NCBI GenBank assembly: GCA_020692205.1
Contig: JAIMKV010000044.1
Location: forward strand, 1-41,644
Direction of reading: 5' to 3'
From: Myxosarcina sp. GA_180221_E-2-1-MAG-40_15
GTDB lineage: Bacteria; Cyanobacteriota; Cyanobacteriia; Cyanobacteriales; Xenococcaceae
Length of the DNA: 41,644 bases
Shown: positions 3,749 through 17,775 of the stretch, piece after piece
Position numbering within the stretch: position 1 is the first letter of the stretch
Layout: each line of letters starts with the position of its first letter
Translations under genes and position numbers: made by a program
The notes under the pieces: generated by a model
Databases searched by the model: none
Told to the model about the DNA's origin: nothing
The model's input: the letters and a program-made list of their open reading frames with translations, nothing else

Positions 3749-5167
3749 TTACCATCCTCGAGATATCTGCCAATATCTCTGAACTAGCTGATAGCGAAAA
3801 GTATACATATTACCTAAGAGATTGTCTTCTTGGAGCAAATAATAGTCTTTGATCAAAAGTCTTAATACAGTTCTAGCCATTTCCTTATCTTTGGTTTCAG
3901 GTTCGCTTTTTAAGTACTGCCACAGCCGAGAAAAAGAGGTAGGGGGATTAATTGAAAGAATATCCAAGATTTCTAGAGCATAAGGTTTTTGTACCTCATT
4001 GTAATAATTATCAATGCGTTCGCGATAGTGATCCATCTTCCATAGATTCAAAGGACTACGCAAACATTCATTAATCGTGTCTGAAATTTTTTCGGCGGTA
4101 ATTTCGTCTTCTGAAGCTTTAAATTGATTAATTAGGTGATGAATATAAAAAGGAATACAGTCAACGGCTAAAGCAATATCCTCAGCAGTTTGGAGTAAAT
4201 TGGTCGCAGGGATTTCTTCCCCTTCCAAAAGATAAAGCGTTAACTTAGTCGCAGCGTCTAAATCTAGTGGTTGACCATCTATAGGATACATATCATTAGT
4301 CGGATCGTTACTGTAGCCAGCTTTCTGAAGATTTTTGATAATGTGATGTAAACCAATTGAGCCAGAAAAGATCATCCGTACATCTGGATAAGTTTGACGA
4401 AGCGATCGCAAAGTATCTAAAACTTCCATAGCATCGCGATCGCTAAAATTCCCCAACATATGAGGCATCTCATCCCAAATTAGCACGATCTGTTTGTCTT
4501 GCAACGTGACCAAATCTTCAATAGTTTTAGTTAAAAGAATTTTCCAGTGGACTGCTGATTCAGGAAACTGATAACCATCAAAATAACTACCAGTTAATTC
4601 ACTCAGATATTCTCTAACTCTTTTGGCTTTACCTGACTCTCTCAGATATGTTTCTGTATCTTGCCAAACTGCTTCGACAAACTCAATCGGAGTTCTCAGT
4701 CCCTCCAAATCTCGATAGATTGGCAGCATATCTACTGGTGCTTCAGCGGTCATCTTTTTCAGGATGCTACTTTTACCAATTCTCCTCTCTCCACTAAAAA
4801 TTAGACTTTGTTGTCTTAGTCTCTCCCATAGATTTGCAATCAATTCTTCTCTACCGATGACTTCATCGGGAGGAACTTGTCCCCCAGGATTAGCTTTAAA
4901 CTCTTCTTGCTTAAACTTGAAGCTTTCAATATGATCGTTCCATTCCCTCTCTGGTTGAGAAGCGATCTTCCAGTCGAGATCTAATTCCTGACACAAGCGA
5001 ATAAATGCATTCAAAGCAACAGGCTTACAATTTACAAACTTAGAGACTGAAGATCTAGATATTTCTAAACGTTCGGCAAGAGAACGTTGAGTCAATTGCT
5101 TAATTGCCAAAGATTCTTCTACTTTCGGTATCCATTCGCTGTTTAACTGTAATGAGCTACGTGCCAT
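3749..5167 (-). CDS. HTH-domain AAA/STAND-like ATPase
   Basis: A 472-residue protein. Residues about 22-67 form a helix-turn-helix (LAERLEISRSSVSKFV then the CQELDLDW segment). A P-loop ATPase domain of the archaeal/STAND type follows, with GREELI at 105-110, Walker A GERRIGKSS at 126-134, Walker B IVLIWDE ending D232-E233, and a sensor-1-like RMIFSGS at 264-270. The C-terminal third (about 330-472) is helical and looks winged-helix-like, as in ORC/STAND proteins. Cyanobacteria hold many HTH-plus-NTPase genes, often with WD40 or TPR tails; this one lacks such a sensor tail. Likely a signalling or defence NTPase, but partner and trigger are unknown. It is a single gene on its strand. Confidence 0.75.
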   Translation of the reverse strand: MARSSLQLNSEWIPKVEESLAIKQLTQRSLAERLEISRSSVSKFVNCKPVALNAFIRLCQELDLDWKIASQPEREWNDHIESFKFKQEEFKANPGGQVPPDEVIGREELIANLWERLRQQSLIFSGERRIGKSSILKKMTAEAPVDMLPIYRDLEGLRTPIEFVEAVWQDTETYLRESGKAKRVREYLSELTGSYFDGYQFPESAVHWKILLTKTIEDLVTLQDKQIVLIWDEMPHMLGNFSDRDAMEVLDTLRSLRQTYPDVRMIFSGSIGLHHIIKNLQKAGYSNDPTNDMYPIDGQPLDLDAATKLTLYLLEGEEIPATNLLQTAEDIALAVDCIPFYIHHLINQFKASEDEITAEKISDTINECLRSPLNLWKMDHYRERIDNYYNEVQKPYALEILDILSINPPTSFSRLWQYLKSEPETKDKEMARTVLRLLIKDYYLLQEDNLLGNMYTFRYQLVQRYWQISRGW

Positions 5168-5341: not shown

Positions 5342-6289
5342 TTAAGATTTTTTGGCTGATATTGCTAGGTAAATACCAAACAAAACTACGGCAAATGCCA
5401 AATAATTAAATAAACTCAACTGTTCGGCAAAGAGTAGCATTGCCAAAATTGCTGCAATTACAGGAATTGACAGCATTGATACTGCGATAAATCCTGAAGA
5501 GAATTTAGCCAAACTATAGGTTAAAAGCCCTTGTCCGAGCGCCTGAGAAATTAATCCTAGACCAACTATTGCTAGCCAACCAGTGACAGAAACGGGAAGT
5601 AATCGCTCTCTGGTGAAAAAGACTAGAGGCAACAAAAATAAACCACCAGCCAGACTTGTCCACTGCATAATTATCACAGTAGGAAATTGCACTCTCAACT
5701 GTTCTAAGCTTAAAATGCTAATTGCGGAAAATATGGCTGCTACTAAAGCTGCCCCATCTCCAGTTAAATGACTGGCTGCTGCCTGTAAGTCTTCAATTCC
5801 AATTGCCACTGCGCCTAATATTGCTACCGCCATCCCGATCAAAAACCGTCGCGAAAATTGCTGACGAAAGATGAGCCAGCCCCCCAAAGTAGTGAAGATC
5901 GGCATCATATTATTGAGCAAAGTTGAATTGGCAATACTGGTTTGAGTTAATGACCATGCCCAAAGCGCCAAAGAAATAGCAAAGCTAATGCCCGCAATTA
6001 AGAGCAGAGCGATCGCCCGACTGGTGTAAAGTTGAGCTGCTGAAGTTGTATCTGGATCCAGATGGTCATTGTGAGATACTTTTAAAGTGTTCCATATGCT
6101 AAAAGCCACGGCAGCGATTAATAGGCGATCGCAGGTTATGGCATTAGGCTTAATTTCTGTTTCAGCGATCGCAATTAAAATTGAAGCTGAAGCAATCCCT
6201 AATAAAGCAACACTCAAAGCTATAGGTGCAATCCAATTCGCCCTTGACTCTAATTTTTTGCCAATCTTACTCAGCCGAAATTGGTACAT
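5342..6289 (-). CDS. EamA/DMT-family transporter
   Basis: A 315-residue integral membrane protein with about ten hydrophobic segments in two halves, the EamA (drug/metabolite transporter) pattern. The SLAKFSSGFIAVSMLSIPVIAAILAMLLFAEQL block near residues 260-290 is typical of the second EamA repeat. Members move amino acids, sugars, nucleosides or toxins; the substrate cannot be read from sequence. It is divergent from the racemase gene, with a 365-base spacer containing the NtcA-type promoter of the racemase and a 16-base perfect palindrome (6382-6397) that is closer to this gene. If it belongs to the same regulon it could be an amino-acid exporter, but that is speculative. Confidence 0.85.
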   Translation of the reverse strand: MYQFRLSKIGKKLESRANWIAPIALSVALLGIASASILIAIAETEIKPNAITCDRLLIAAVAFSIWNTLKVSHNDHLDPDTTSAAQLYTSRAIALLLIAGISFAISLALWAWSLTQTSIANSTLLNNMMPIFTTLGGWLIFRQQFSRRFLIGMAVAILGAVAIGIEDLQAAASHLTGDGAALVAAIFSAISILSLEQLRVQFPTVIIMQWTSLAGGLFLLPLVFFTRERLLPVSVTGWLAIVGLGLISQALGQGLLTYSLAKFSSGFIAVSMLSIPVIAAILAMLLFAEQLSLFNYLAFAVVLFGIYLAISAKKS

Positions 6290-6381
6290 TTAATCAAAAT
6301 TGAATATAAATACAGTATTTAGTTAAAAATTAAATCCCAAAAATTGATGCGATCAATGTTACATTTTGCTAATTAGCCCGC

Positions 6382-6404: not shown

Positions 6405-6446
6405 GTAGTTAAACATACAGTTTCTCAGACCTTTACTGTATACCGT
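6405..6446 (+). promoter_or_regulatory. NtcA-type promoter of the racemase unit
   Basis: GTA (6405-6407), eight bases, TAC (6416-6418), then exactly 22 bases and TACCGT (6441-6446), which fits the TAN3T -10 form. This is the arrangement of NtcA-activated cyanobacterial promoters. Predicted transcript start is near 6453, giving a leader of about 200 bases. The same spacing recurs at 7461 and 11957. Confidence 0.75.
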
Positions 6447-6454
6447 ATACAGTA
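6434..6454. promoter_or_regulatory. GTATAC-N-GTATAC operator, copy 1
   Basis: Ten-base arms (6434-6443 and 6445-6454) around a single central C make a perfect palindrome, TACTGTATAC-C-GTATACAGTA. It covers the -10 box at 6441-6446. The form (TGTATAC half-sites) resembles operators of GntR/FadR-type regulators, but the protein is unknown. This is the most symmetric of three related sites. Confidence 0.7.
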
Positions 6455-6483
6455 TAAATATTGAATTATTGAGGATTATTTAA

Positions 6484-6645
6484 TGGTTCTTATGGGGCGC
6501 GATCGCTCAATTGACTAGCTATGACGCTCGTAGCAGTAATGCAGCACCTAAGGACAATATTTCGGCTCTTTTCTTGGTATCTTCGGCGATCGCTTGGCTA
6601 AAGGTTGCCTACCATCACCATCACAAGGTTTATATCCATGATTAG
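6484..6645 (+). other. Open frame in the racemase leader, possible remnant
   Basis: A 53-codon frame runs from just after a TAA to a TAG 9 bases before the racemase ATG. It has no ATG or GTG; the only usable start would be TTG at 6511 (44 residues), with no ribosome-binding site. The translation has a hydrophobic stretch (NISALFLVSSAIAWLKV) followed by HHHH. It may be the decayed end of a former first gene of the unit, or chance; two HIP1-like sites contribute to the frame. Confidence 0.25.
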
Positions 6646-6654
6646 ATTTGAGCG

Positions 6655-7389
6655 ATGAAAATTAAAGTTATTAATCCTAATACAACTTCCAGTATGACGG
6701 AAAAAATAGGTGCGATCGCCCGATCTGTTGCCAATCCTGAGACAGAAATTATTGCTTGTAACCCCAATATGGGACCTGTTTCTATCGAAGGACATTATGA
6801 TGAGGCTCTTAGTATTGTCGGCATTCTCGATGAAATACGCAAAGGGGAAACAGAATGCATCGATGGTTATGTTATTGCGTGTTTTGGCGATCCTGGCTTA
6901 CTAGCAGCACGAGAATTAACTAAAGCACCTGTAATTGGTATTGCTGAAGCAGCAATGCACGCAGCCAGTTTGATCGCCACGAGCTTTTCTATTGTTACTA
7001 CTTTAAGTAGGACTAAAATTATCGCTCGTCATTTAGTCGATAACTATGGCATGAGTCATTTATGTCGTCAAATTCGGGCGATTGATTTACCCGTTCTAAG
7101 TTTAGAAGCAGATTCGGAAATTAAAAATATTATTTTAGAAGAGTGTCACCAAGCTTTAGCAGAAGATGAGTGCGGTGCAATTATTCTTGGCTGTAGCGGC
7201 ATGGCAGATTTGACGACTCAGATTTCGGCTCAATTGGGAATCCCTGTAATTGATGGGGTGAGTGCTGCGGTGAAATTTGTCGAAGCTCTAGTAGGATTGC
7301 AACTATCTACCAGTAAGACTGGCGATTTAGCCTATCCTATTGCCAAACCATACATGGGCATTTTGTCTTCTTTTGAATGCGATCGCTAA
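6655..7389 (+). CDS. Asp/Glu/hydantoin racemase family protein
   Basis: A 244-residue cofactor-independent racemase of the Asp/Glu/hydantoin superfamily. The N-terminus KVINPNTTSSMTEKI is characteristic of the hydantoin/allantoin racemase branch. The two catalytic cysteines expected of the two-base mechanism are present: C76 in IACFGDPG and C180 in LGCSGMAD, at the spacing seen in hydantoin racemases. Expected role is interconversion of D and L forms of 5-substituted hydantoins, allantoin or a related amino-acid derivative in the cytoplasm. No hydantoinase, carbamoylase or allantoinase is nearby, so the substrate is open. It is the first gene of the NtcA-type island, with its own promoter at 6405-6446, and precedes two ABC importers controlled by matching promoters. 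Confidence 0.88.
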   Translation: MKIKVINPNTTSSMTEKIGAIARSVANPETEIIACNPNMGPVSIEGHYDEALSIVGILDEIRKGETECIDGYVIACFGDPGLLAARELTKAPVIGIAEAAMHAASLIATSFSIVTTLSRTKIIARHLVDNYGMSHLCRQIRAIDLPVLSLEADSEIKNIILEECHQALAEDECGAIILGCSGMADLTTQISAQLGIPVIDGVSAAVKFVEALVGLQLSTSKTGDLAYPIAKPYMGILSSFECDR

Positions 7390-7460
7390 CAAAATTAATC
7401 TAACAAGCTATGTACAAATAATACACAAAAAATTGAAGTTTGATGACAAAAGATGAATTC

Positions 7461-7502
7461 GTAATCAAAGATACAAATCATCTAGTTTTTAATGTATACA
7501 GT
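7461..7502 (+). promoter_or_regulatory. NtcA-type promoter of the first ABC importer
   Basis: GTA (7461-7463), eight bases, TAC (7472-7474), 22 bases, then TACAGT (7497-7502) as the TAN3T -10 box. Predicted transcript start is near 7509, about 130 bases before the ATPase ATG. Geometry is identical to the promoters at 6405 and 11957. Confidence 0.75.
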
Positions 7503-7506
7503 ATGC
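7494..7506. promoter_or_regulatory. GTATAC-N-GTATGC operator, copy 2
   Basis: GTATACAGTATGC matches the GTATAC-N-GTATAC palindrome at 6438-6450 with one half-site substitution, and overlaps the -10 box in the same register. Probable binding site of the same unidentified regulator. Confidence 0.6.
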
Positions 7507-7641
7507 GAAATAGTCAAAAGATTGTAGTATTCACCAAGATTTAAATAATCAAATCAAAAGATTCTCTGGTCTCAAGAAGAGTTCAGTAAAACAATCTCAG
7601 GCAGTTAAAAGTTTTTTTAGTAGGTTTGAAATTGAATAATT

Positions 7642-8829
7642 ATGAATATCAGCACTTCGACTACTGCAACAACAACAAGTAAAAATCAGTCTCAGATCGA
7701 ACAAGCTTTACAAAATAATGCGGCTGGCGTTTTAATGAATTCTGTAACCAAAAAATATGGTTCATTTACCGCAGTAGAAGATTTAACTTTAGAAATTCCC
7801 GCAGGATATTATTGTTGTTTACTCGGCCCTAGCGGTTGCGGCAAAACCACAGCCTTGCGGATGATTGCAGGACATGAAGAAGTAACTAGTGGCGATATTT
7901 TTATTGGCGGTCGCAAGGTAAATCAGATTCCAGCAGCCAAACGCAGCACCTCGATGATGTTCCAAAGCTATGCCTTATTTCCCCACAAAACTATTTGGGA
8001 GAATATCGAGTTTGGGCTAAAAATGCAGAAAGTACGAGAAGCAGAAAGACGCACCAGAGTCGGAGAAATGTTGGATTTAGTGGGATTGAGTCATTTAGGC
8101 GATCGCAAACCAGACCAACTCAGTGGTGGACAGAGACAGCGAATTGCCCTGGCTCGTTCCTTAGTTACCCGTCCTCAAGTATTGATGTTAGATGAACCTC
8201 TCAGTGCTTTAGATGAAAACTTACGGGTAAGGATGCGCACGGAGTTACGTAAGATTCAAAAGCAATTTGGGATGACTTTTATTCAGGTAACCCACCACGT
8301 AGAAGAAGCCTTTTCCCTTTCTGATCAAATTGTTGTCATGACACACGGCAAAATCGATCAGGTTGCCAGTCCAGAAGAATTATTTGATACACCTGCCTCC
8401 CAATTTGTTGCCAAATTCATGGGCGATAATAATATTTTCCAAGGTAAAGTAATTAATTGCGTTCAAGATAGCGATTTAGATTTAATTCAACTGGAAGTAG
8501 AAGGTTTAGGTACTATTTTCTGTCGCGGACATGGTGTGGTAATAGGAACAGAAGCAGCTTGTTCAATTCGTCCCGATTTGATGTTTGTCGAACCTTATTC
8601 CCCCGATCTTCCTGCTAAGTCCTCCTTAGCTGCCAATCAAATTTCCGCTCGAATTACCGCAGTAGAAATGACAGGCTATGTAACGCGAGTTTGCCTGATG
8701 GCAGAATCGACAGGACAAGAATTACTTTACAAAGTTCGTACCGAAGATTGGCGTTCTAACTCTCTGCACGAAGGTCAATTAGTCGTTCTTAGTTGGTCAA
8801 AAGATAACTGTATTTTTCTTGCTTATTAA
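7642..8829 (+). CDS. ABC transporter ATPase, polyamine/opine type (PotA-like)
   Basis: A 395-residue import ATPase. Walker A GPSGCGKTT is at 62-70, the Q-loop FQSY at 107-110, the signature LSGGQ at 160-164, Walker B VLMLDEP at 180-186 and the switch histidine H218. Residues beyond about 280 form the C-terminal regulatory TOBE-like region typical of the PotA/FbpC/UgpC group. The first 30 residues are a low-complexity Ser/Thr/Gln extension not needed for the fold; ATG 7642 is kept because no better internal start with a ribosome-binding site is seen. It is the first gene of a four-gene unit (ATPase, binding protein, two permeases) and drives uptake across the inner membrane. Substrate class is polyamine, opine, thiamine or similar. 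Confidence 0.9.
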   Translation: MNISTSTTATTTSKNQSQIEQALQNNAAGVLMNSVTKKYGSFTAVEDLTLEIPAGYYCCLLGPSGCGKTTALRMIAGHEEVTSGDIFIGGRKVNQIPAAKRSTSMMFQSYALFPHKTIWENIEFGLKMQKVREAERRTRVGEMLDLVGLSHLGDRKPDQLSGGQRQRIALARSLVTRPQVLMLDEPLSALDENLRVRMRTELRKIQKQFGMTFIQVTHHVEEAFSLSDQIVVMTHGKIDQVASPEELFDTPASQFVAKFMGDNNIFQGKVINCVQDSDLDLIQLEVEGLGTIFCRGHGVVIGTEAACSIRPDLMFVEPYSPDLPAKSSLAANQISARITAVEMTGYVTRVCLMAESTGQELLYKVRTEDWRSNSLHEGQLVVLSWSKDNCIFLAY

Positions 8830-8837
8830 ACTAAAAT

Positions 8838-10145
8838 ATGTCTTCTAAAATTGGTCGGCGCACACTGCTAAAAACAGGATTAGCAGCAGGGGCTACTAGT
8901 ATTGCCGCAATTAGTTGTTCTCCCAAACAAGAAACTTCTGTTAATAAAAGTCCTACCTTAATTACTAACAAAATTAAAGACGTCACTTTACGTTTTGTAG
9001 GGACGGGGGCTGCTCAAAATAACGATATTCGCAACCAAGCAGAAAAAGATTTAGGCTTTAAGTTGCAAATGCGCGCCCTCAGTACTGGCGAAGTGATTCA
9101 AATTGGCATTTCTCAGCCAAAACAATATGATATCTTCGATGGGGAATTCTTTTCTTTACCTTTAGTTTTTCCTTCTGGGAATTTGCAACCAATTGATGTC
9201 AGTCGGATTAAACAATTTGACAAAATTACACCAATTTTTACTACGGGAGAATTATATTCAGGGGCGAAGGTAAATACTTCCCAAGGAACAGCGCCCCGCA
9301 AGGTAATGTTTGTTAAAAATCAAGATTCGACGGAGTTTTCTCAAGAACCAACTAACTGGGCAACGATGATCCCCTATCAGTATGGGGCAGATACTTTGGG
9401 ATATCGTCCCGATCTAGTGGGTAGAAAAATCGAGTCTTGGGCAGAGTTATTCAATCCCGAATTTAAAGGGAGAACGTCTTTGCTAGATATTCCTTCAATT
9501 GGGATTATGGATGCAGCAATGGTGCTGGAATCTCAAGGATTGATGACCTTTAGGGATAAAGGGAACATGACCAAGGAAGAACTGGACAAAGTCACCCAAA
9601 TCTTAATAGATCGCAAACAAGACGGTCATTTTCGAGCATTTTGGAAAACCTTTGATGAGTCGGTTAACTTCATGGCATCAGGAGAAGTTGTGGTGCAGTC
9701 AATGTGGTCGCCTGCCGTCACGGCGGTTAAAGCGAGGGGATTGCCCTGTATTTATGCACCTCTAAAAGAAGGCTATCGTGGTTGGGGCGGTGGTTTAGGC
9801 ATCTCGAAAAACCTCTCTGGTATCGAACTCGATGCAGCTTATGAATATCTCAATTGGGTTGCGGATGGTTGGATTGGAGGATTTTTAAGCAGGCAGGGTT
9901 ACTACAGTTCCACCCCTGAAAATGCCAGGAAGTTTATGAAACCAGAAGAATGGGATTTTTGGTATGAAGGCAAACCTGCTGCCACGGAGATTGTCGATCC
10001 TTATGGGGAGAAGATCGAATCTAAAGGTGCGGTAAGAGATGGCGGTTCTTTTGAAAAGCGCGTAGCTAATATTACCTGTTGGAACTCCTTTATGCAAGAA
10101 CAAGTATATCTCGTCTACAAGTGGACTGAATTTATTGTGGCGTAA
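8838..10145 (+). CDS. Tat-exported lipoprotein, ABC substrate-binding (PotD-like)
   Basis: A 435-residue periplasmic binding protein that begins 8 bases after the ATPase. The N-terminus has a twin-arginine motif (GRRTLLKTG at 6-14) and a lipobox ending AISC (C27), so it should be exported folded by Tat and lipid-anchored. The body fits the family-1/PotD fold: YDIFDGEFFSLPLVF, WATMIPYQYGADTLGY, WAELFNPEFKGRTSLLD and the GGLGISKNLSGIELDAAYEYLNW block are the kind of segments seen in polyamine/opine binding proteins. It captures substrate for the two permeases downstream. Ligand cannot be assigned; hydantoin- or amine-type compounds would suit the neighbouring racemase, but that is inference. 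Confidence 0.85.
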   Translation: MSSKIGRRTLLKTGLAAGATSIAAISCSPKQETSVNKSPTLITNKIKDVTLRFVGTGAAQNNDIRNQAEKDLGFKLQMRALSTGEVIQIGISQPKQYDIFDGEFFSLPLVFPSGNLQPIDVSRIKQFDKITPIFTTGELYSGAKVNTSQGTAPRKVMFVKNQDSTEFSQEPTNWATMIPYQYGADTLGYRPDLVGRKIESWAELFNPEFKGRTSLLDIPSIGIMDAAMVLESQGLMTFRDKGNMTKEELDKVTQILIDRKQDGHFRAFWKTFDESVNFMASGEVVVQSMWSPAVTAVKARGLPCIYAPLKEGYRGWGGGLGISKNLSGIELDAAYEYLNWVADGWIGGFLSRQGYYSSTPENARKFMKPEEWDFWYEGKPAATEIVDPYGEKIESKGAVRDGGSFEKRVANITCWNSFMQEQVYLVYKWTEFIVA

Positions 10146-10150
10146 GGGAG

Positions 10151-10216
10151 AAAAGTAAAAAGTAAAAAATTAAAAAGTATTGCAATTATTATATATTTCT
10201 TTTGACTTTTGACTTT
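10151..10216. repeat. Degenerate heptamer repeat with inverted halves
   Basis: An A-rich run built of AGTAAAA-like units (10151-10178) is followed by a T-rich run of GACTTTT-like units (10200-10216), so the two halves can pair imperfectly. Such heptamer tracts are common in cyanobacterial spacers. This one separates the binding-protein gene from its permease gene and might weaken readthrough within the operon. Confidence 0.4.
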
Positions 10217-10226
10217 CCCAAAGCTT

Positions 10227-11081
10227 ATGTTAAACAACAAAAATTTATCAACTTACCTATTGGTAACACCGCAAACTTTAATTTTTGTCTTATTTTTAGT
10301 GTTACCAATTATCGCGATCGCCATTGTCAGTTTTTGGAATTTTAATGGCTTTGCTATGACTCCAGGTTTTACTCTTAGTAATTACTTGGGGATATTTACT
10401 TCTAAAGTTTATTTGTCTACTTATCTGAATACCTTTAAATTTGCCGCGATCGTTTGGTTGATTTGCTTGTTAATTAGCTATCCTGTGGCTTATTTTTTGG
10501 CATTTCAGATTAAAAGCCCGCAATGGCAAACGATTTGGTTTTTAATCTGTACTGTTCCCTTCTTAACTTCTAATATCATTCGTATGATTGCCTGGATTCC
10601 TTTTTTGGGTAGAGAAGGATTACTCAATCAAGCCTTAATGGGACTAAATCTTATTGATCGCCCAATTGAAATATTTTTGTTTTCTGATTTTGCCGTCGTT
10701 TTGGCGATGGTGCAACTGTATTGTCTATTTATGATTGCACCAATCTTCAATAGTATGGTCAGGATTGATCGCGCTTTAGTTTCGGCTGCTGAAGATTTAG
10801 GTTCATCTAGTTTCCAAATTCAAAAAGAAATTATCTTACCTCTATCTGCCCCAGGAATTGCGATCGGTTCGATTTTTGTTGTGACTTTAGTTATGGGTGA
10901 ATTTGCGACGATGCGTTTAATGAGTGGCGGTAAATCCTCTTCTGTTGGCTATCTAATTAAAAACCAAATTGACAGTTTACAGTATCCGATGGCAGCAGCT
11001 AACGCGATCGTCTTGCTACTTTTAGCCTTAATAGTTGTGGCTTTAATTTTACGTACTGTAGATATTCGCAAACAACTTTGA
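10227..11081 (+). CDS. ABC transporter permease, PotB-like
   Basis: An inner-membrane permease of about 284 residues with six hydrophobic segments. The EAA loop that docks on the ATPase is visible as SAAEDLGSSSFQIQKEIILPL near two-thirds of the length. The frame is open from a TTG at 10209, but those six extra codons lie in the heptamer repeat; ATG at 10227 begins a normal N-terminus and is preferred. Paired with the next gene it forms the membrane channel of the importer starting at 7642. Confidence 0.87.
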   Translation: MLNNKNLSTYLLVTPQTLIFVLFLVLPIIAIAIVSFWNFNGFAMTPGFTLSNYLGIFTSKVYLSTYLNTFKFAAIVWLICLLISYPVAYFLAFQIKSPQWQTIWFLICTVPFLTSNIIRMIAWIPFLGREGLLNQALMGLNLIDRPIEIFLFSDFAVVLAMVQLYCLFMIAPIFNSMVRIDRALVSAAEDLGSSSFQIQKEIILPLSAPGIAIGSIFVVTLVMGEFATMRLMSGGKSSSVGYLIKNQIDSLQYPMAAANAIVLLLLALIVVALILRTVDIRKQL

Positions 11082-11118
11082 GAAGTAGGAAATTAAAAAT
11101 TAAAAGGTAAATAAAGAA

Positions 11119-11934
11119 ATGGATAAATATAAGCGATCGCTTTCTTATTATTTTCTAGCAGCTTTTTTTGGTTTATTTGTCTTATTTCTTTATGGCCCAA
11201 TGTTGTCGATGTTTTTATTATCACTTCAAGGGACAAAAGGAACTTTGACTTTCCCTATGCGTGGATTTAGTTTTTATTGGCTTCAATCTGTATTTGCCGA
11301 ACAGCGTGTTGGTAATTTTGTTGAGGCATTTGGCAGGTCTTTTTCTTTAGCAATAATTATTGCTTTGATTACAGTAGTTTTTAGCGTTTTGGCAGGATTA
11401 GCTTTTCGTAAACAATTTAAAGGTTCAAGTGCAATTTTTTACCTAACTATTTCTAGTTTAATTGTTCCTAGCATTTTAGTTTCTTTAGGTATTGGTATTT
11501 TATTTAGCTTAATAAATTTACCAGTTCAATGGTTTTCTTCCGCCTTAGCTGGACATTTAACTTGGACATTACCCTTTGCTTTTTTAATTATGTTAGGCAT
11601 CTTTGGTCGGTTTAATCCTGCTTATGAAGAAGCTGCCCGCGATTTAGGTGCGAGTGAAACAACCACCTTCTGGGAAGTAATTTTTCCTTTAATTGCTGCT
11701 AGTGTAGTCGGTGTAGCTTTGCTTGGATTCACCCTTTCTTACGATGAATTTACCCGTACTTCGCTAATTTCTGGAGCAACTAATACCTTGCCTTTGGAAA
11801 TATTTGGCATGACGACTAATGTCACTTCTCCTGCACTTTACGCTTTAGGCACTTTAACTACTATTTTTTCTTTTGCTCTAATTGGAGTTACTTTATTTAC
11901 CATCCAATTTTTATCTCGTCGTCAAATAAAATAA
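11119..11934 (+). CDS. ABC transporter permease, PotC-like
   Basis: A 271-residue second permease of the polyamine/opine-type importer, with six hydrophobic segments. The EAA loop reads YEEAARDLGASETTTFWEVIFPL, close to the PotC consensus, and the YDEFTRTSLISG segment follows. It starts 37 bases after the PotB-like gene and is the last gene of the unit; the next unit has its own promoter at 11957. No hairpin terminator is obvious between them, so some readthrough into the second importer is possible. Confidence 0.88.
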   Translation: MDKYKRSLSYYFLAAFFGLFVLFLYGPMLSMFLLSLQGTKGTLTFPMRGFSFYWLQSVFAEQRVGNFVEAFGRSFSLAIIIALITVVFSVLAGLAFRKQFKGSSAIFYLTISSLIVPSILVSLGIGILFSLINLPVQWFSSALAGHLTWTLPFAFLIMLGIFGRFNPAYEEAARDLGASETTTFWEVIFPLIAASVVGVALLGFTLSYDEFTRTSLISGATNTLPLEIFGMTTNVTSPALYALGTLTTIFSFALIGVTLFTIQFLSRRQIK

Positions 11935-11956
11935 AGCAAGTCAACAATTGTCTTTT

Positions 11957-11998
11957 GTATTTATCTATACAATATTTTGATTAACTATTGTATACAGT
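11957..11998 (+). promoter_or_regulatory. NtcA-type promoter of the amino-acid importer
   Basis: GTA (11957-11959), eight bases, TAC (11968-11970), 22 bases, then TACAGT (11993-11998) as -10 box. The predicted start near 12005 leaves a leader of about 36 bases before ATG 12041. It is the third member of the identical promoter set. Confidence 0.75.
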
Positions 11999-12002
11999 AT
12001 TC
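11990..12002. promoter_or_regulatory. GTATAC-N-GTATTC operator, copy 3
   Basis: GTATACAGTATTC differs by one half-site base from the palindrome at 6438-6450. Outer flanks CTATT and AATAG add further dyad symmetry (one extra A on the right). It overlaps the -10 box exactly as in the other two copies. Confidence 0.6.
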
Positions 12003-12040: not shown

Positions 12041-12715
12041 ATGAACTATTCATTTGATTTTTCTGTAGTCTGGGAAAATATTGATATCTTACTGGCGGGA
12101 GCTTGGTTGACTCTAAAGATATCGCTAGTGGCGATCGCTTTTGGCTTAGTTATCGGTGTTATCGGTTCACTGTGTCGGACTTCTGGGAATAAAATTTTGA
12201 ATGCGATCACCTTGGCTTATGTAGAAGTTATTCGCAACACGCCCTATTTAATTCAGCTATTTTTTATCTTTTTTGGCTTACCCAATTTAGGCATTAAGCT
12301 ATCGGCAGAACAAGCAGCAATTCTTTCGCTAGCGGTTAATTTTGGCGCGTATTCAACTGAAATCGTCAGGGCGGGAGTCGAAAGTATTCCCCAGGGACAA
12401 TGGGAAGCAGGTATGGCGATTGGCTTTAAGAAACTGGCAATATTTCGCTACATAGTCATTCCACCAGCTTTAGCCAATATTTATCGAGCCTTAGTCGGTC
12501 AAGTAATTTTAGCAGTACTGTTTACGAGTATCGTATCGCAAATTGCCGCCGAAGATTTAACCTATGCAGGAGATTATTTAAACTCTCGTACTTTTCGCAG
12601 CTTTGAGATTTATTTTACCGTCGCCCTGCTTTATCTAGCGATTGTCTGGCTAATCAAAGGAGTGGCTTTCCTGATTGAAAACCAAGCATTTAAGTTTGCC
12701 AAATATAGACGTTAG
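12041..12715 (+). CDS. Polar amino-acid ABC permease 1
   Basis: A 224-residue permease of the His/Glu/Gln/Arg/opine (PAAT) family. It shows the family core: VEVIRNTPYLIQLFFIFFGLP, then GAYSTEIVRAGVESIPQGQWEAGMAIGF, the EAA-type docking loop. About five membrane segments. It is the first gene of a tight four-gene unit (permease, permease, binding protein, ATPase) whose promoter carries an NtcA box and the shared GTATAC operator. The exact amino acid is not predictable. Confidence 0.93.
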   Translation: MNYSFDFSVVWENIDILLAGAWLTLKISLVAIAFGLVIGVIGSLCRTSGNKILNAITLAYVEVIRNTPYLIQLFFIFFGLPNLGIKLSAEQAAILSLAVNFGAYSTEIVRAGVESIPQGQWEAGMAIGFKKLAIFRYIVIPPALANIYRALVGQVILAVLFTSIVSQIAAEDLTYAGDYLNSRTFRSFEIYFTVALLYLAIVWLIKGVAFLIENQAFKFAKYRR

Positions 12716-12733
12716 TTTTGGGAATCTAAATTG

Positions 12734-13387
12734 ATGGACGAATTTACACTTTCTCGTATATTCATTAACTTAATCATTGCTACCAAGTGGACGTTAATTC
12801 TTTCGGCGATCGCCTTTATCGGCGGTGGTATTGTTGGTTTTATTGTGATGCTAATGCGCCTCTCTGCCAGTAAATGGCTAAGAGGCGTTAGTTTTGTCTA
12901 TGTTGAATTCTTCCAAGGAACACCTTTACTGCTACAGCTATTTTTGGCCTTCTTTGGACTTTCGGTGGTATTTGGCATCAACTTATCTCCGTTAGTAGCA
13001 GCTACTCTGGCTTTAACAGGATTTACCAGTGCTTTTTTGGCCGATATTTGGCGCGGTTCGATTGAATCTTTGCCACCAGGACAGTGGGAAGCGGGTTCGG
13101 CGATTGGCTTTGGCTATTTAAAACAAATGCAGCTAATTATCTTACCCCAGGCGGTAAAAAGCGCGATCGCCCCTACCATTGGCTTTTTAGTGCAGGTAAT
13201 TAAGGGAACTTCTTTAGCTTCAATTATTGGCTTCACTGAGCTATCTAGATCTGCTGCTTTGATTAATAACGTAACTCTGCAATCACTGCTGATTTTTGGT
13301 TTGGCAGGTTTAATTTACTTTGCAGTCTGCTATCCTCTGTCTACCTGGAGTCAGTATTTAGAGAAAAAATTAGCTTATGAGACTTAA
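12734..13387 (+). CDS. Polar amino-acid ABC permease 2
   Basis: A second PAAT-family permease of 217 residues. The same core is present: VEFFQGTPLLLQLFLAFFGL and WRGSIESLPPGQWEAGSAIGF. It pairs with the preceding permease as a heterodimeric channel. The frame also opens at a TTG at 12731, directly before ATG 12734; the ATG is chosen. It begins 18 bases after the first permease and ends 11 bases before the binding-protein gene, so co-transcription is near certain. Confidence 0.92.
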   Translation: MDEFTLSRIFINLIIATKWTLILSAIAFIGGGIVGFIVMLMRLSASKWLRGVSFVYVEFFQGTPLLLQLFLAFFGLSVVFGINLSPLVAATLALTGFTSAFLADIWRGSIESLPPGQWEAGSAIGFGYLKQMQLIILPQAVKSAIAPTIGFLVQVIKGTSLASIIGFTELSRSAALINNVTLQSLLIFGLAGLIYFAVCYPLSTWSQYLEKKLAYET

Positions 13388-13398
13388 ATGCGATCGCC

Positions 13399-14304
13399 AT
13401 GACTTTAGATTTTTTAAAAGCACTATTTCCTACCAGCTTTCAACGAGCTTTAGCATTGTTTGTTGCCAGTTTCTTACTTACCGTTAGCATTGCCTCGTGT
13501 TCAGGAGGAGATTCCGATGCAGTTAAATCCGAAGCGAATATCTCTCCTGATAACATTGCCCAATTAGCTGAAGGGGGAGGCACTTTACAAGATATTCAAG
13601 CAGCAGGAAAAATCAATATTGCCGTACCTGCCGACTTTCCTCCCTTTGGGGCGGTAGGAGTGAATATGGAGCCCAGAGGATACGATATCGACGTAGCTAA
13701 TCAAATTGCCGCAGGATTAGGGGTGAAAGCAGAACTCGTCTCGGTAGTAGGAAATTACCGCATTCCTTTTTTACAAACAGCTCGAGTGGATTTGGTGATT
13801 TCTAGCTTAGGCAAAAACGAAGAAAGAGCAGCTATTATCGACTTTTCCCAACCTTATGCACCTTTCTTTTCGGGAATCTATGGCAGACCAAATATTAAGG
13901 TAGCTTCCCTGGGTGAACTTCAAGGACAAACCGTCGGTGTAGCCCAAGGTTCTCTCGAAGACCTAGAAATCTCTAAGCTGCCCCCAGATCAGGTAGATAT
14001 TAAACGCTATGCCAATAATAGTTTGACAGCTTCAGCATTGGTATCAGGACAGGTAGATTTAATTGCGACAGGAAATGTAGTAGCAGCCAAATTAATTCAG
14101 GACAATCCCGAGCAAAAAATTGAGAGTAAGTTTGTGATGAAAGATTCTCCCTGTTACGTTGGTCTCCGTAAAAAGGATACAGAACTTTTACAACAGGTAA
14201 ATAATATTATTGCTAATCTCAAACAAACTGGGAAATTAAATCAATTGTCTTTAAAGTGGTTTGGCGAACCTCTGCCTAAAGATTTAGCTGCTGCTACTAC
14301 TTAA
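13399..14304 (+). CDS. Family-3 amino-acid-binding lipoprotein
   Basis: A 301-residue periplasmic binding protein (SBP_bac_3). Residues about 15-34 form a lipoprotein signal with lipobox IASC (C34), followed by a Ser/Asp-rich linker. The mature part starts a typical type-II fold: INIAVPADFPPFG, RGYDIDVANQIAAGLG, ARVDLVISSLGKNEERAAIIDFSQPY, and closes with LNQLSLKWFGEPLP. These are the amino-acid-contacting regions of the family. It supplies the two PAAT permeases upstream. Its sequence suggests a polar amino acid or related nitrogenous ligand; nothing more specific is safe. Confidence 0.92.
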   Translation: MTLDFLKALFPTSFQRALALFVASFLLTVSIASCSGGDSDAVKSEANISPDNIAQLAEGGGTLQDIQAAGKINIAVPADFPPFGAVGVNMEPRGYDIDVANQIAAGLGVKAELVSVVGNYRIPFLQTARVDLVISSLGKNEERAAIIDFSQPYAPFFSGIYGRPNIKVASLGELQGQTVGVAQGSLEDLEISKLPPDQVDIKRYANNSLTASALVSGQVDLIATGNVVAAKLIQDNPEQKIESKFVMKDSPCYVGLRKKDTELLQQVNNIIANLKQTGKLNQLSLKWFGEPLPKDLAAATT

Positions 14305-14317
14305 CTAGGAGAAACAA

Positions 14318-15106
14318 ATGACTAACTTTCAACCGCGATCGCACTCATCAAATACGGCTATCTTAGAAACTAAACCAATTATTGTCGCCCGCGATGTCGA
14401 GAAATGGTATGACAATGGTTTTCACGTACTTAAAGGGGTAAGCTCAACTATTAATCAGGGTGAAGTTGTCGTGTTAATGGGGCCTTCTGGTTCAGGTAAA
14501 TCTACTTTTATTCGTACCTTCAACGGTTTAGAACCCTATCAAAAAGGCAGGATTGAAATTGATGGCACTCTCATTGCCCATAACCAGAAAGGAATCGAAT
14601 TATTACGCCGCGAAGTTGGCATGGTATTTCAGCAGTTTAATCTCTTTCCCCACCTTACAGTGCTTAAAAATATTACCTTGGGTCCAACTCATTTACGAGG
14701 CTTATCTAAACCCCAAGCCAAAGCAAATGCCATGCAGTTATTAGCAAAAGTTGGTATTGCTCATCAAGCTAATAAATATCCAGGACAACTTTCTGGTGGA
14801 CAACAACAACGGGTAGCCATTGCCCGTGCTTTAGCCATGCAGCCAAAAGTAATGCTGTTTGACGAACCCACCAGCGCACTCGATCCAGAAATGGTACGGG
14901 AAGTATTAGATGTCATGAGAAGCCTTGCAGAATCGGGGATGACTATGGTTTGCGTTACCCACGAGGTAGGTTTTGCCCGCGAAGTTGCCGATCGCATTAT
15001 CTTTTTAGCTGATGGTACTTTAGTTGCTGATACTACTCCCGATGAGTTTTTTAATAACCCGAAAGAAGAACGCTTACAAAAGTTCCTTGCTCAGATTTTA
15101 CATTAG
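14318..15106 (+). CDS. Amino-acid ABC importer ATPase (GlnQ-like)
   Basis: A 262-residue ATPase with Walker [10 protein letters not shown] at 55-63, Q-loop [16 protein letters not shown] near 104-119, signature LSGGQ at 158-162, Walker B VMLFDEP at 178-184 and switch H215. The pattern [14 protein letters not shown] is diagnostic of the polar-amino-acid (GlnQ/HisP) subgroup. An AGGAG-like ribosome-binding site lies before ATG 14318 (CTAGGAGAAACAAATG). It ends the four-gene unit, with a palindromic terminator 7 bases downstream. Confidence 0.94.
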
Positions 15107-15455: not shown

Positions 15456-16358
15456 TTATGGCTCTGCTGACAATGTCTCTTGAATCAGGAGAGGAATTTC
15501 GCTAGGTTTATTAGCTACTTTTATGCCGATTTTCTTCAGTTTATTAACTGTTTGGCGGTCGCGATTGACGGCTGGAATTGAACCAGATAAATGATTGCTA
15601 ATAATCGTAGTCGCGTCACCATAAACTTTTTCTTGAGGGGCTTTTAATCCTGCCAGGTAAATAATTACGGGCTTAACATAACCATAATTTTTGCTGTAGG
15701 CGATAATTGCTTCAATGTCGTTATCGTTAATTCTTTGCCCGATAGAGACAATTGCCTTAGTATTGGGATCTTCATTGAAAATTGACAACCAATGAGTCAA
15801 GCTAGAACCAATAATACGTTCATCGCCTAAACTAATCACCATTGACTGACCAAGACTGGCAGCATTTAACTCGGTAGCAACTTCGTAAGAGAGATGGCGA
15901 CTAGAAGTAATTAAACCTACTGTACCTGGTTGATAAAACTGAGGCTGTAAATTGCCGAGCCAAGCCTGTTGTGGAATTATAATACCATCGCTACCAGGAC
16001 CTAAGATTAGGGTGTTGGTTTTCTTAGCGTGCCTAATCAGTTCAATGGTATCCAAAGGAGGTATTTTAGGCGTTAAAATGATCACATGATTGATTCCTGC
16101 TGCGATCGCTTCTCTAACAGCATCTAGCACTTGATAAGAATCAACAAATATTAGGCTAACATCTATTTTCTCTACCTGAGCCTGAACCTGTTCAATTAAA
16201 TCAAATACAGGTATATTTTCTACTTTGGTGCCACCATTGCCAGGACTTACTCCAGCCACAATATTAGTACCATAGGCTTTCATTTGCACGGCGCAAAAGG
16301 CAGCCCAATTCGATGTTATTCCTTGAACAATAATTTTGTTTGGAGAAGACCAATTCAT
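15456..16358 (-). CDS. sucD: Divergent succinyl-CoA synthetase alpha-like protein
   Basis: A 300-residue homologue of SucD, the CoA-binding and phospho-histidine subunit of succinyl-CoA synthetase. Overall order is kept: QGITSN, YGTNIVAGVSPGNGGT, VFDLIEQV, ILGPGSDGIIIP and VGLITSSRHLSYE correspond to the family blocks. Key chemistry is missing: the GHAGA motif with the phosphorylated histidine reads YGDATTI, giving Asp248, and the helper glutamate of the GEIGG motif reads GQRIND (Gln208). The GPNCPG loop is GPGSDG and the CoA-loop GSQG is SNWA. Catalysis by the normal mechanism therefore looks impossible. Length is normal and the frame intact, so it seems kept for another role. sucC lies 157 bases upstream. 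Confidence 0.85.
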   Translation of the reverse strand: MNWSSPNKIIVQGITSNWAAFCAVQMKAYGTNIVAGVSPGNGGTKVENIPVFDLIEQVQAQVEKIDVSLIFVDSYQVLDAVREAIAAGINHVIILTPKIPPLDTIELIRHAKKTNTLILGPGSDGIIIPQQAWLGNLQPQFYQPGTVGLITSSRHLSYEVATELNAASLGQSMVISLGDERIIGSSLTHWLSIFNEDPNTKAIVSIGQRINDNDIEAIIAYSKNYGYVKPVIIYLAGLKAPQEKVYGDATTIISNHLSGSIPAVNRDRQTVNKLKKIGIKVANKPSEIPLLIQETLSAEP

Positions 16359-16515
16359 ACAATGGGCGGAGTTTTCGGGTAAAAATTGTCAGCGAAATTG
16401 AACTAAAGAGCTAAATTAAAAAAACTAGCGCGGCTTGAATCGGGAGCAAAAAACATCAATTCAGCTATGCTAAATAGGCTTGATCTTTTGTCGCAACTCT
16501 CAGCGCACAATATTT

Positions 16516-17775
16516 TTAATTAGATTTGACTATTGTAATCGCCTCCGAAATTGCTGCCTCTAAATTACTGGATAGATAAATTTTCTCGGTTAATGGCAAA
16601 TCCTCAAGATTATCTTGATCCAACAACCGTAAAATAAAGTAAGGTGTAGCTGAAGGCGTTTGATTCGATTTCAAATTAGGATAATTTACGTTTAGATTAC
16701 TGCTATTATCTGCGGTAATAGCACTGTTGACCAATACCTGCTCTGCTTTAGATAGTAAAGTTAATTCTTCCGCAGTACGGCAATAGTCGCTAATAGTTTG
16801 GACAATTTCACGACTAATGGCTGCTGATTCCCAAATATTTAAGACAATTACTTTAATTCCTTTAATTGTCTCTAGCTGCGCTAAAATTTCCCATAATTTT
16901 TCTCGATAAAGCTGTAGATTATCGGCTTCGGTAATCAAACTATTTTCGAGTAGCAGACTGCAAGCAGGAGTAACTTTATCTTGTTTGAATAAGTCCCAGG
17001 TTAATAGTGCCGAGTCGAAACTACCGCAAATCAGGGCAACTTTACCTAGTTTGTGATGCCAATCGAGCCAACGCCAGTTAATCTGATTCAAGTTTGGCTC
17101 AGTTTTGCTTTGCTGCGCCGAAAAATTTAGAGTCTCGACGATTGGTTGTCTTGCCACAGCATAATCATTAACTTTTATTTTGCCATCTAAGGCCATCAAT
17201 TCGCCCTGAGTATTAATTCCTAACGGGTTAATCTCAATCAAGTCAAGGTCTTTTTCAAAGAATAAACGATACATCTTGGCAATAATGTCGCTAACAGAGC
17301 AAATGAGTTTTCCTGATAATCCCATCTTGGCAGCTAAACGACGAGCATAAAACAGCGAAAATTCCGCCTCAACTACCACCTGCTGTAGATTGGTCAGTAA
17401 TAAATCAACATTCATTCCCCCAAAAGCCGAACCAAGCAACACAGGCGATTGTAGGTCGTAATCTAGAACAATAGCCAAAAATACCTCTCTTTCAGTATTG
17501 TAGTGGGCCTCAGCTAAGATAACTTCAGGATATTCTCCGAGAATAGGCAAATTAAAAATATTGCGTGCAGCAGCGATCGCATCAATTGTATTGGCTACAA
17601 AACGTACCCCTCCAGCCTTTCCCCTTCCTCCAGATCTGACTTGAGACTTTAAAACCACGGGATAAGGAATTTGCAGCTGTTTAATTTTTCTTGAATCTTT
17701 AATTGTTTGAGAAGGTAAAATAGGAATACCTACCATTCTAAATAATTCTTTAGCCTGATACTCTAGTAGTTCCAT
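16516..17775 (-). CDS. sucC: Divergent succinyl-CoA synthetase beta-like protein
   Basis: A 419-residue SucC homologue. The N-terminal ATP-grasp domain is well kept: LEYQAKELF at the start, KSQVRSGGRGKAGGV at 43-57, LIEINPL with E181 and N183, and LMALDGKI with D197. The C-terminal ligase domain is not: the NGAGLAMGTMD loop reads CGSFDSALLTWD near 249-260, the GGGAT loop is unrecognisable, NIFGGI reads NIWESA, and the last hundred residues contain Asn-rich unalignable sequence. With SucD also lacking its histidine, the pair cannot be assigned normal succinyl-CoA ligase activity. ATP binding may remain. It is the first gene of the minus-strand group sucC, sucD and the 50-residue gene. Confidence 0.85.
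   Translation of the reverse strand: MELLEYQAKELFRMVGIPILPSQTIKDSRKIKQLQIPYPVVLKSQVRSGGRGKAGGVRFVANTIDAIAAARNIFNLPILGEYPEVILAEAHYNTEREVFLAIVLDYDLQSPVLLGSAFGGMNVDLLLTNLQQVVVEAEFSLFYARRLAAKMGLSGKLICSVSDIIAKMYRLFFEKDLDLIEINPLGINTQGELMALDGKIKVNDYAVARQPIVETLNFSAQQSKTEPNLNQINWRWLDWHHKLGKVALICGSFDSALLTWDLFKQDKVTPACSLLLENSLITEADNLQLYREKLWEILAQLETIKGIKVIVLNIWESAAISREIVQTISDYCRTAEELTLLSKAEQVLVNSAITADNSSNLNVNYPNLKSNQTPSATPYFILRLLDQDNLEDLPLTEKIYLSSNLEAAISEAITIVKSN

Follow-up and report, generated by a model that had tools for sequence, protein, structure and literature searches.

Which signals switch on a small island of racemase and importer genes in a cyanobacterium? In Myxosarcina sp. GA_180221_E-2-1-MAG-40_15, contig JAIMKV010000044.1 (41,644 nt, the whole of which was analysed and is called the window here) holds three consecutive plus-strand units, for an allantoin/hydantoin racemase and two ABC importers, each behind a box of the form GTAN8TAC. 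The original prediction took these for NtcA-activated promoters that tie the units into one nitrogen-scavenging programme. In the sections of PMC3898017 that describe canonical NtcA promoters, GTAN8TAC stands near -41.5 and the -10 is TAN3T. Here, we report that all three -10 boxes sit inside a second, GntR-type operator, and that the units are probably part of a regulon for purine/ureide scavenging, with composite promoters at which NtcA would activate and a GntR regulator would repress until a compound of the pathway is present.

Results

The elements of the three promoters are as follows.

6405..6418, + strand: NtcA-type box GTAGTTAAACATAC, racemase promoter, read from sequence
6438..6450, + strand: GntR-type operator GTATACCGTATAC over putative -10 TACCGT (6441-6446), overlapping copy at the racemase
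6445-6457, + strand: second overlapping operator copy GTATACAGTATAA at the racemase
7461..7474, + strand: NtcA-type box GTAATCAAAGATAC, first ABC importer promoter, read from sequence
7494..7506, + strand: GntR-type operator GTATACAGTATGC over putative -10 TACAGT (7497-7502)
11957..11970, + strand: NtcA-type box GTATTTATCTATAC, second ABC importer promoter, read from sequence
11990..12002, + strand: GntR-type operator GTATACAGTATTC over putative -10 TACAGT (11993-11998)

All three boxes read as originally described, with exactly 22 nt between each and its -10. The accompanying argument against chance holds for the spaced pair but not for the box. GTAN8TAC-N22-TAN3T occurs four times on the two strands of the window (once on the minus strand at 237, and three times on the plus strand, each time ahead of one of the three units), against a mean of 0.32 and a maximum of 2 on both strands in 100 dinucleotide shuffles. 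GTAN8TAC by itself is not enriched (10 in the window versus 5.9 +/- 2.5 shuffled; 11 of 100 shuffles reach 10). A scan with a sigma-70-type consensus did not discriminate (23 sites versus 24.7 in shuffles). The genome has an ntcA gene (C92:76237, 385.4 bits versus a cut-off of 244.95).

Two amt genes of the genome served as a control. The one on contig C113 has box GTATTTGCAAATAC about 95 nt upstream, with a canonical -10 at 22 nt only in the direction leading away from amt, and the surroundings of the one on C88 contain no box with TAN3T at 20-24 nt. At the gene for a type III glutamine synthetase (PF12437, 247.6 bits), GTAGCGATGACTAC has TAN3T 24 nt toward the gene and also 24 nt the opposite way, and as a control it lends the canonical geometry weak support. 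No GlnA of this genome reaches the curated cut-off of TIGR00653.

Overlooked in the original prediction was an 11-mer, GTATACAGTAT, common to all three promoters (6445-6455, 7494-7504 and 11990-12000). At the racemase it is included in a perfect 10-bp inverted repeat, TACTGTATAC-C-GTATACAGTA (6434-6454); the operator copies at 7494 and 11990 are imperfect palindromes. Their core, GTATAC, meets the pattern GTM-N0-1-KAC, which the operator section of PMC4494728 gives for FadR-type GntR regulators, often with an additional half-site 7-12 nt off.

In the whole genome (4.87 Mb, 131 contigs; reversed patterns as controls) the 11-mer occurs exactly at 11 places and its reverse nowhere. Three are in the window and three on contig C100, one of these directly upstream of a GntR gene; those within coding frames on C6, C63 and C91, and one in a gap without a clear target on C14, look like background. 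With at most one mismatch the operator GTATACAGTATAC has 10 distinct places, and the reversed pattern again none. One falls within a phosphoenolpyruvate synthase gene, and nine are in promoter positions at eight promoters, that of the racemase holding two overlapping places. The eight belong to the racemase, PotA of the first importer, the GlnP-type permease of the second, gntR, an allantoate amidohydrolase, a porin, an NCS2 permease operon on C110, and the gap on C66 between a xanthine-dehydrogenase-type operon and a divergent NCS2 permease (PF00860). Half of them (4/8) lack a GTAN8TAC box.

The candidate regulator of this operator is a GntR/FCD protein encoded at C100:534-1226 (PF00392 63.2 bits, cut-off 27; PF07729 FCD 87.5 bits, cut-off 24.3), whose nearest named match, among those found, is from Pleurocapsales cyanobacterium LEGE 10410 at 87% identity. 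An allophanate-hydrolase-C-like gene (PF21986) accompanies gntR at its operator promoter. Four GntR-domain genes of the genome score above the cut-off, and only the contig of this one has the operator (at most one mismatch), directly upstream of the gene.

Across 27 genomes of the family, our own included, forward and reverse operator matches together numbered 5-14 in the 12 genomes with the regulator (at least 70% identity) and 0-4 in the other 15 (Mann-Whitney p = 1.1e-5); four of those 15 hold a relative at 52-54% identity. The reversed-pattern control gave 0-4 throughout. We also fetched 30 promoters of gntR orthologues, one of which is cut by a contig end; an operator (at most two mismatches) lies within 260 nt upstream in 22 of the 29 examined, against 1.1% in shuffles.

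The layout of box and operator recurs outside the window. On C110, unlinked in the same genome and ahead of two purine permeases, GTAATCAAAGATAC, identical to the box at 7461, stands 22 nt before TACAGT in GTATACAGTATGC. In relatives we collected operator loci as 60 stretches from 14 genomes (11 GntR-bearing), leaving out the sites of the remaining genomes, mostly one or two each. Exact GTAN8TAC was then counted up to 46 nt upstream of the 83 operator sites in these stretches and our own loci. It stands 19 nt before the operator, that is, 22 nt before TACNGT, 14 times; other distances account for five boxes (26 nt three times, 37 and 46), one of them already counted at 19. In 2000 shuffles the mean at 19 nt was 0.053, and no distance ever had more than three.

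Besides the three of the window, these composites comprise the purine-permease operon in our genome and in G012, G016 and G019; a Rieske oxygenase-led form of that operon, with the permease following in each case, in G008, G006, G007 and G018; the GlnP permease and an 8-oxoguanine deaminase in G016; and one site in G009. G004 and G023 have the composite in the same place with one mismatch in the box, and the geometry at the purine-permease operon is thus exact in seven relatives and within one box mismatch in two. The exact box at 19 nt is found at none of the sites listed before gntR (5), the allantoate amidohydrolase (6), the porin (5), the xanthine-dehydrogenase-type operon (4), the divergent permease (3), PuuE (5) and EamA (1). 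This pattern would best be explained by two types of promoter in one regulon, GntR-only and NtcA plus GntR.

At racemase loci outside our genome (22 of the 23 fetched could be anchored) the composite at 19 nt occurs in none; in G080 and G244 the operator follows the nearest box by 33 nt, and three other loci have a box without operator. The four fetched loci of other families that extend into the region upstream of PotA (L016, L051, L052 and L057), their identity confirmed, have no operator with up to three mismatches within 500 nt, and two of the four have a box. G043, also of another family, unites gntR, an allophanate-like gene, the racemase, an EamA-like gene adjoining gntR, the importer and an allantoate amidohydrolase (431.2 versus 399) in one locus; operators with one to two mismatches precede PotA and gntR there, without a box at 19 nt. 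The composite layout is a family-level trait: beyond the family the operator recurs, and the fixed NtcA spacing is absent in the loci checked.

Similarity between the PotA promoter and that of the purine-permease operon is not limited to box and operator but continues upstream of the box, and the PotA promoter may have originated by copying. A 12-mer, TAGTTTTGTGAC, was seen (at most one mismatch) 12-14 nt upstream of exact NtcA-type boxes at L038:2274-2285, L038:3193-3204, L161, L174 (twice), L183, L184, L190 and L202; three of the boxes behind it have no operator after them. It is possibly a third binding site or a copied piece of promoter, and a more derived copy may stand before PotA in the window.

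The other genes under the operator point to purines and ureides. In our genome these are an allantoate amidohydrolase family gene (445 bits, cut-off 399), the C110 operon with a xanthine permease (435 bits, cut-off 414), a SomB-type porin and, on C66, a molybdopterin enzyme whose domains (Ald_Xan_dh_C, MoCoBD and XdhC-type maturation) exceed their Pfam cut-offs, as well as the PF00860 permease with an adenosine deaminase behind it (559.8 bits, cut-off 419). In relatives, PuuE allantoinase (463.5, cut-off 424.6), adenosine deaminase (484.4, cut-off 419) and an 8-oxoguanine deaminase homologue, 89% identical to our own (which scores 663.8, cut-off 532), are under the operator. The Rieske oxygenase gene stands directly before the purine permeases under the composite promoter (L164:1552-2544 and L161:3157-4149) and is not in our C110 copy of the operon; the nearest solved structures of the relatives' enzyme are SxtDIOX/SxtT and the methylxanthine demethylases NdmA/B. 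Our own PuuE gene (L230, C72) scores above its curated cut-off; about 86 nt upstream of it is an NtcA-type box, GTATCAACAATTAC, with no TAN3T at 19-25 nt.

The genes of the island and its divergent neighbour are these.

5342..6289, - strand: EamA-family transporter, divergent from the racemase
6655..7389, + strand: allantoin/hydantoin racemase (Asp_Glu_race 192.8 bits, cut-off 31)
7642..8829, + strand: ABC importer ATPase, PotA-like (best curated models below cut-offs)
8838..10145, + strand: substrate-binding protein, SBP_bac_8 family
10209..11081, + strand: permease, PotB-like
11119..11934, + strand: permease, PotC-like
12041..12715, + strand: polar amino acid-type permease of the second importer (HEQRo_perm_3TM 109.9 bits, cut-off 42.2)
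12731..13387, + strand: second polar amino acid-type permease (91.9 bits, cut-off 42.2)
13399..14304, + strand: substrate-binding protein family 3 (SBP_bac_3 110 bits, cut-off 26.4)
14318..15106, + strand: ATPase, GlnQ-like (best curated model below cut-off)

The racemase can be aligned along its length to 3qvj (290.9 bits) and to 5lfd, a named allantoin racemase (154.1 bits). Where 3qvj and its variant 3qvk differ, at two positions that we take to be catalytic, it has cysteine both times; by sequence it appears allantoin-racemase-like. The island is patchily distributed: among 388 genomes of the order, our own included, the importer binding protein is present in 22 and the racemase in 24 (E <= 1e-60), and neither is found in the 12 other genomes of the same genus. 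A stretch of 50 residues of the binding protein is matched at 84% in G006. GC content does not mark the island (39.4% versus 39.7%).

The divergent EamA gene is preceded, at a distance of about 20 nt, by AATACAGTATTTA (6309-6321), a weak symmetric relative of the operator (common part ATACAGTAT); in G018 an operator starts 15 nt before the first start codon of the frame of the EamA homologue. Elsewhere in the window, a CoA-binding/ATP-grasp pair like the subunits of succinyl-CoA synthetase adjoins the island on the opposite strand (15456-17775), and 3749-5167 encodes a protein with a Cro/C1-type helix-turn-helix and an AAA domain.

Discussion

From the observed sequences, geometry, gene families and co-occurrence we infer the following mechanism. 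NtcA would signal nitrogen shortage via 2-oxoglutarate and, bound to GTAN8TAC centred near -41.5, would activate as at a class II promoter. That centring predicts transcript starts at 6453, 7509 and 12005 and places the operator at about -15 to -3, where the C100 regulator, if bound to GTATACAGTATAC with the matching -10 (TACCGT or TACAGT) inside it, would block RNA polymerase; the regulator would act here as a repressor and not as an activator. A purine-derived compound would release it, and the operons would fire only when nitrogen is short and food is present. Because the -10 boxes lie inside the operator of a wider regulon, nitrogen shortage alone is probably insufficient for expression. 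Control by NtcA, as originally proposed, is supported by the geometry, by the ntcA gene and by boxes that keep this distance in relatives and at an unlinked operon of our genome, but it is incomplete. Likewise, the three units do appear linked in one programme, but its theme would be purine/ureide nitrogen rather than nutrients in general.

Where the operator stands without the box (at gntR, the allantoate amidohydrolase, the porin, and between the xanthine-dehydrogenase-type operon and the permease divergent from it), expression would depend solely on the inducer. As only some members carry the box, we propose that steps of import and entry tend to be gated by nitrogen and that several internal steps follow the inducer alone. 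This is no more than a tendency, since the porin and the C66 permease depart from it and the racemase, though an internal step, has a box. With somewhat less assurance than for the regulon itself, we lean towards the view that the composite (GTAN8TAC-19 nt-GTATACAGTATRC) locks the GntR repressor and NtcA together at unlinked operons and that the patchily distributed importer/racemase island was wired in by promoter copying.

Several observations weigh against this proposal. The exact composites were all seen in a single family of genomes. Of the 14, 8 are copies that precede the purine-permease operon in one of its two forms (Rieske gene present or absent), which leaves a smaller number of independent cases, namely those at the racemase, PotA, the GlnP-type permease, the permease operon and the 8-oxoguanine deaminase. 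The composite of G009 (L214:1503) faces no frame of at least 110 codons within its 3-kb stretch; PuuE of that genome is only a 93-position fragment with a stop (C1:974213-974491), and the purine pathway may be decaying there. The original prediction had looked to relatives that keep the genes for a loss of the motifs, and in G016 the outcome is divided: the exact composite is kept at the GlnP-type importer, but PotA keeps the operator with the nearest exact box 7 nt further off, and the racemase has neither box nor operator within 450 nt upstream. In that genome (L184:1827-2895) the racemase is followed at once by the composite promoter of the purine-permease operon; the window has PotA at that place, and a promoter swap is possible. 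Seven of the 29 gntR orthologues have no operator in the 260 nt upstream. Our own PuuE gene has none with up to three mismatches in 330 nt upstream, and our 8-oxoguanine deaminase gene (C100) has none of its own with up to two. XdhA, the best named model for the C66 enzyme, does not reach its cut-off (645 versus 780), and in G030 a gene for a D-hydantoinase/dihydropyrimidinase (581.7 versus 393.25) lies near the importer.

That last neighbourhood favours the alternative that survives best, though we consider it doubtful: dual control as proposed, with importers for other substrates (hydantoins, amino acids or polyamines) and a racemase in hydantoin rather than purine use. Hydantoins are known to be used through hydantoinase, racemase and carbamoylase, the amidohydrolase also passes a broader hydantoinase/carbamoylase model (411.6 versus 204), and the curated models nearest to the importers describe PotA/PhnT2, GlnP/GlnQ, cystine and ectoine systems, most of them scoring below cut-offs. 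However, the regulon holds purine permeases, a xanthine-dehydrogenase-type enzyme and adenosine deaminase, with PuuE allantoinase in relatives; the racemase aligns over its length with the allantoin enzyme 5lfd as well as with 3qvj; and G043 has importer, racemase, gntR and allantoate amidohydrolase together.

It is improbable that these are plain NtcA-activated promoters, as first suggested, with GTATACAGTAT a conserved extended -10 and no second regulator involved. The box and its spacing are canonical by the promoter sections of PMC3898017, and ntcA is present, but the same 13-mer recurs in both orientations, at promoters without an exact box at that distance in the sites listed (gntR, allantoate amidohydrolase, porin and xanthine-dehydrogenase-type operon), and its abundance tracks one GntR gene. 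That a transcription factor other than the C100 protein reads the operator seems very unlikely: the genome has four GntR-domain genes above cut-off and binding by the C100 protein is a prediction from sequence, but only this gene has the operator on its contig, directly upstream, and operator counts follow its orthologues, 22 of 29 of which have the operator before them. Least likely is control by GntR only, with the boxes as chance or another protein's sites, which would suit the lack of enrichment of GTAN8TAC alone and the four of eight own promoters without a box, but not 14 exact boxes at one distance before 83 operator sites, at 0.053 expected, in at least five gene classes.

The preferred reading, NtcA and GntR at one promoter, has parallels in known systems. 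In lac-type logic a global activator is combined with a specific repressor over the start site; the two inputs at one promoter are alike, and the signals here would be nitrogen status and probably a purine-derived compound. The Klebsiella hpx system for purines and allantoin has the GntR regulator HpxS and an HpxA-type racemase; it is similar in its GntR regulator, its enzymes of the allantoin racemase and allantoate amidohydrolase type and its overlying nitrogen control, whereas here the global regulator would be NtcA, and enzymes and importers differ. The class II NtcA promoters treated in the sections of PMC3898017 (such as glnA, nirA and urtA) share GTAN8TAC, the distance to the TAN3T -10 and nitrogen-scavenging genes, but here a further operator, palindromic and linked to a GntR gene, encloses the -10. 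FadR-type (FCD) GntR repressors, as covered in the operator section of PMC4494728, share the GntR and FCD domains, a GT-AT-AC core and an operator before their own gene, whereas the operator here is GTATAC-A-GTATAC; the Cyanobacteria row of the table in that paper is 0, 1, 0, which we read as no FadR-type case within it.

Among the top-ranked open-licence papers, judged by title and abstract start, we found no account of an NtcA-GntR purine/allantoin regulon in cyanobacteria. A global activator combined with a specific repressor is an established design; new for cyanobacteria, as far as searched, are this regulon, its operator and the composite of NtcA and GntR sites at a fixed distance. If the proposal is true, it would give a defined route and control logic for the use of purines and ureides as nitrogen sources by cyanobacteria, would open a family of orphan ABC importers to testing, and would show how a specific repressor and NtcA can share one promoter with fixed geometry.

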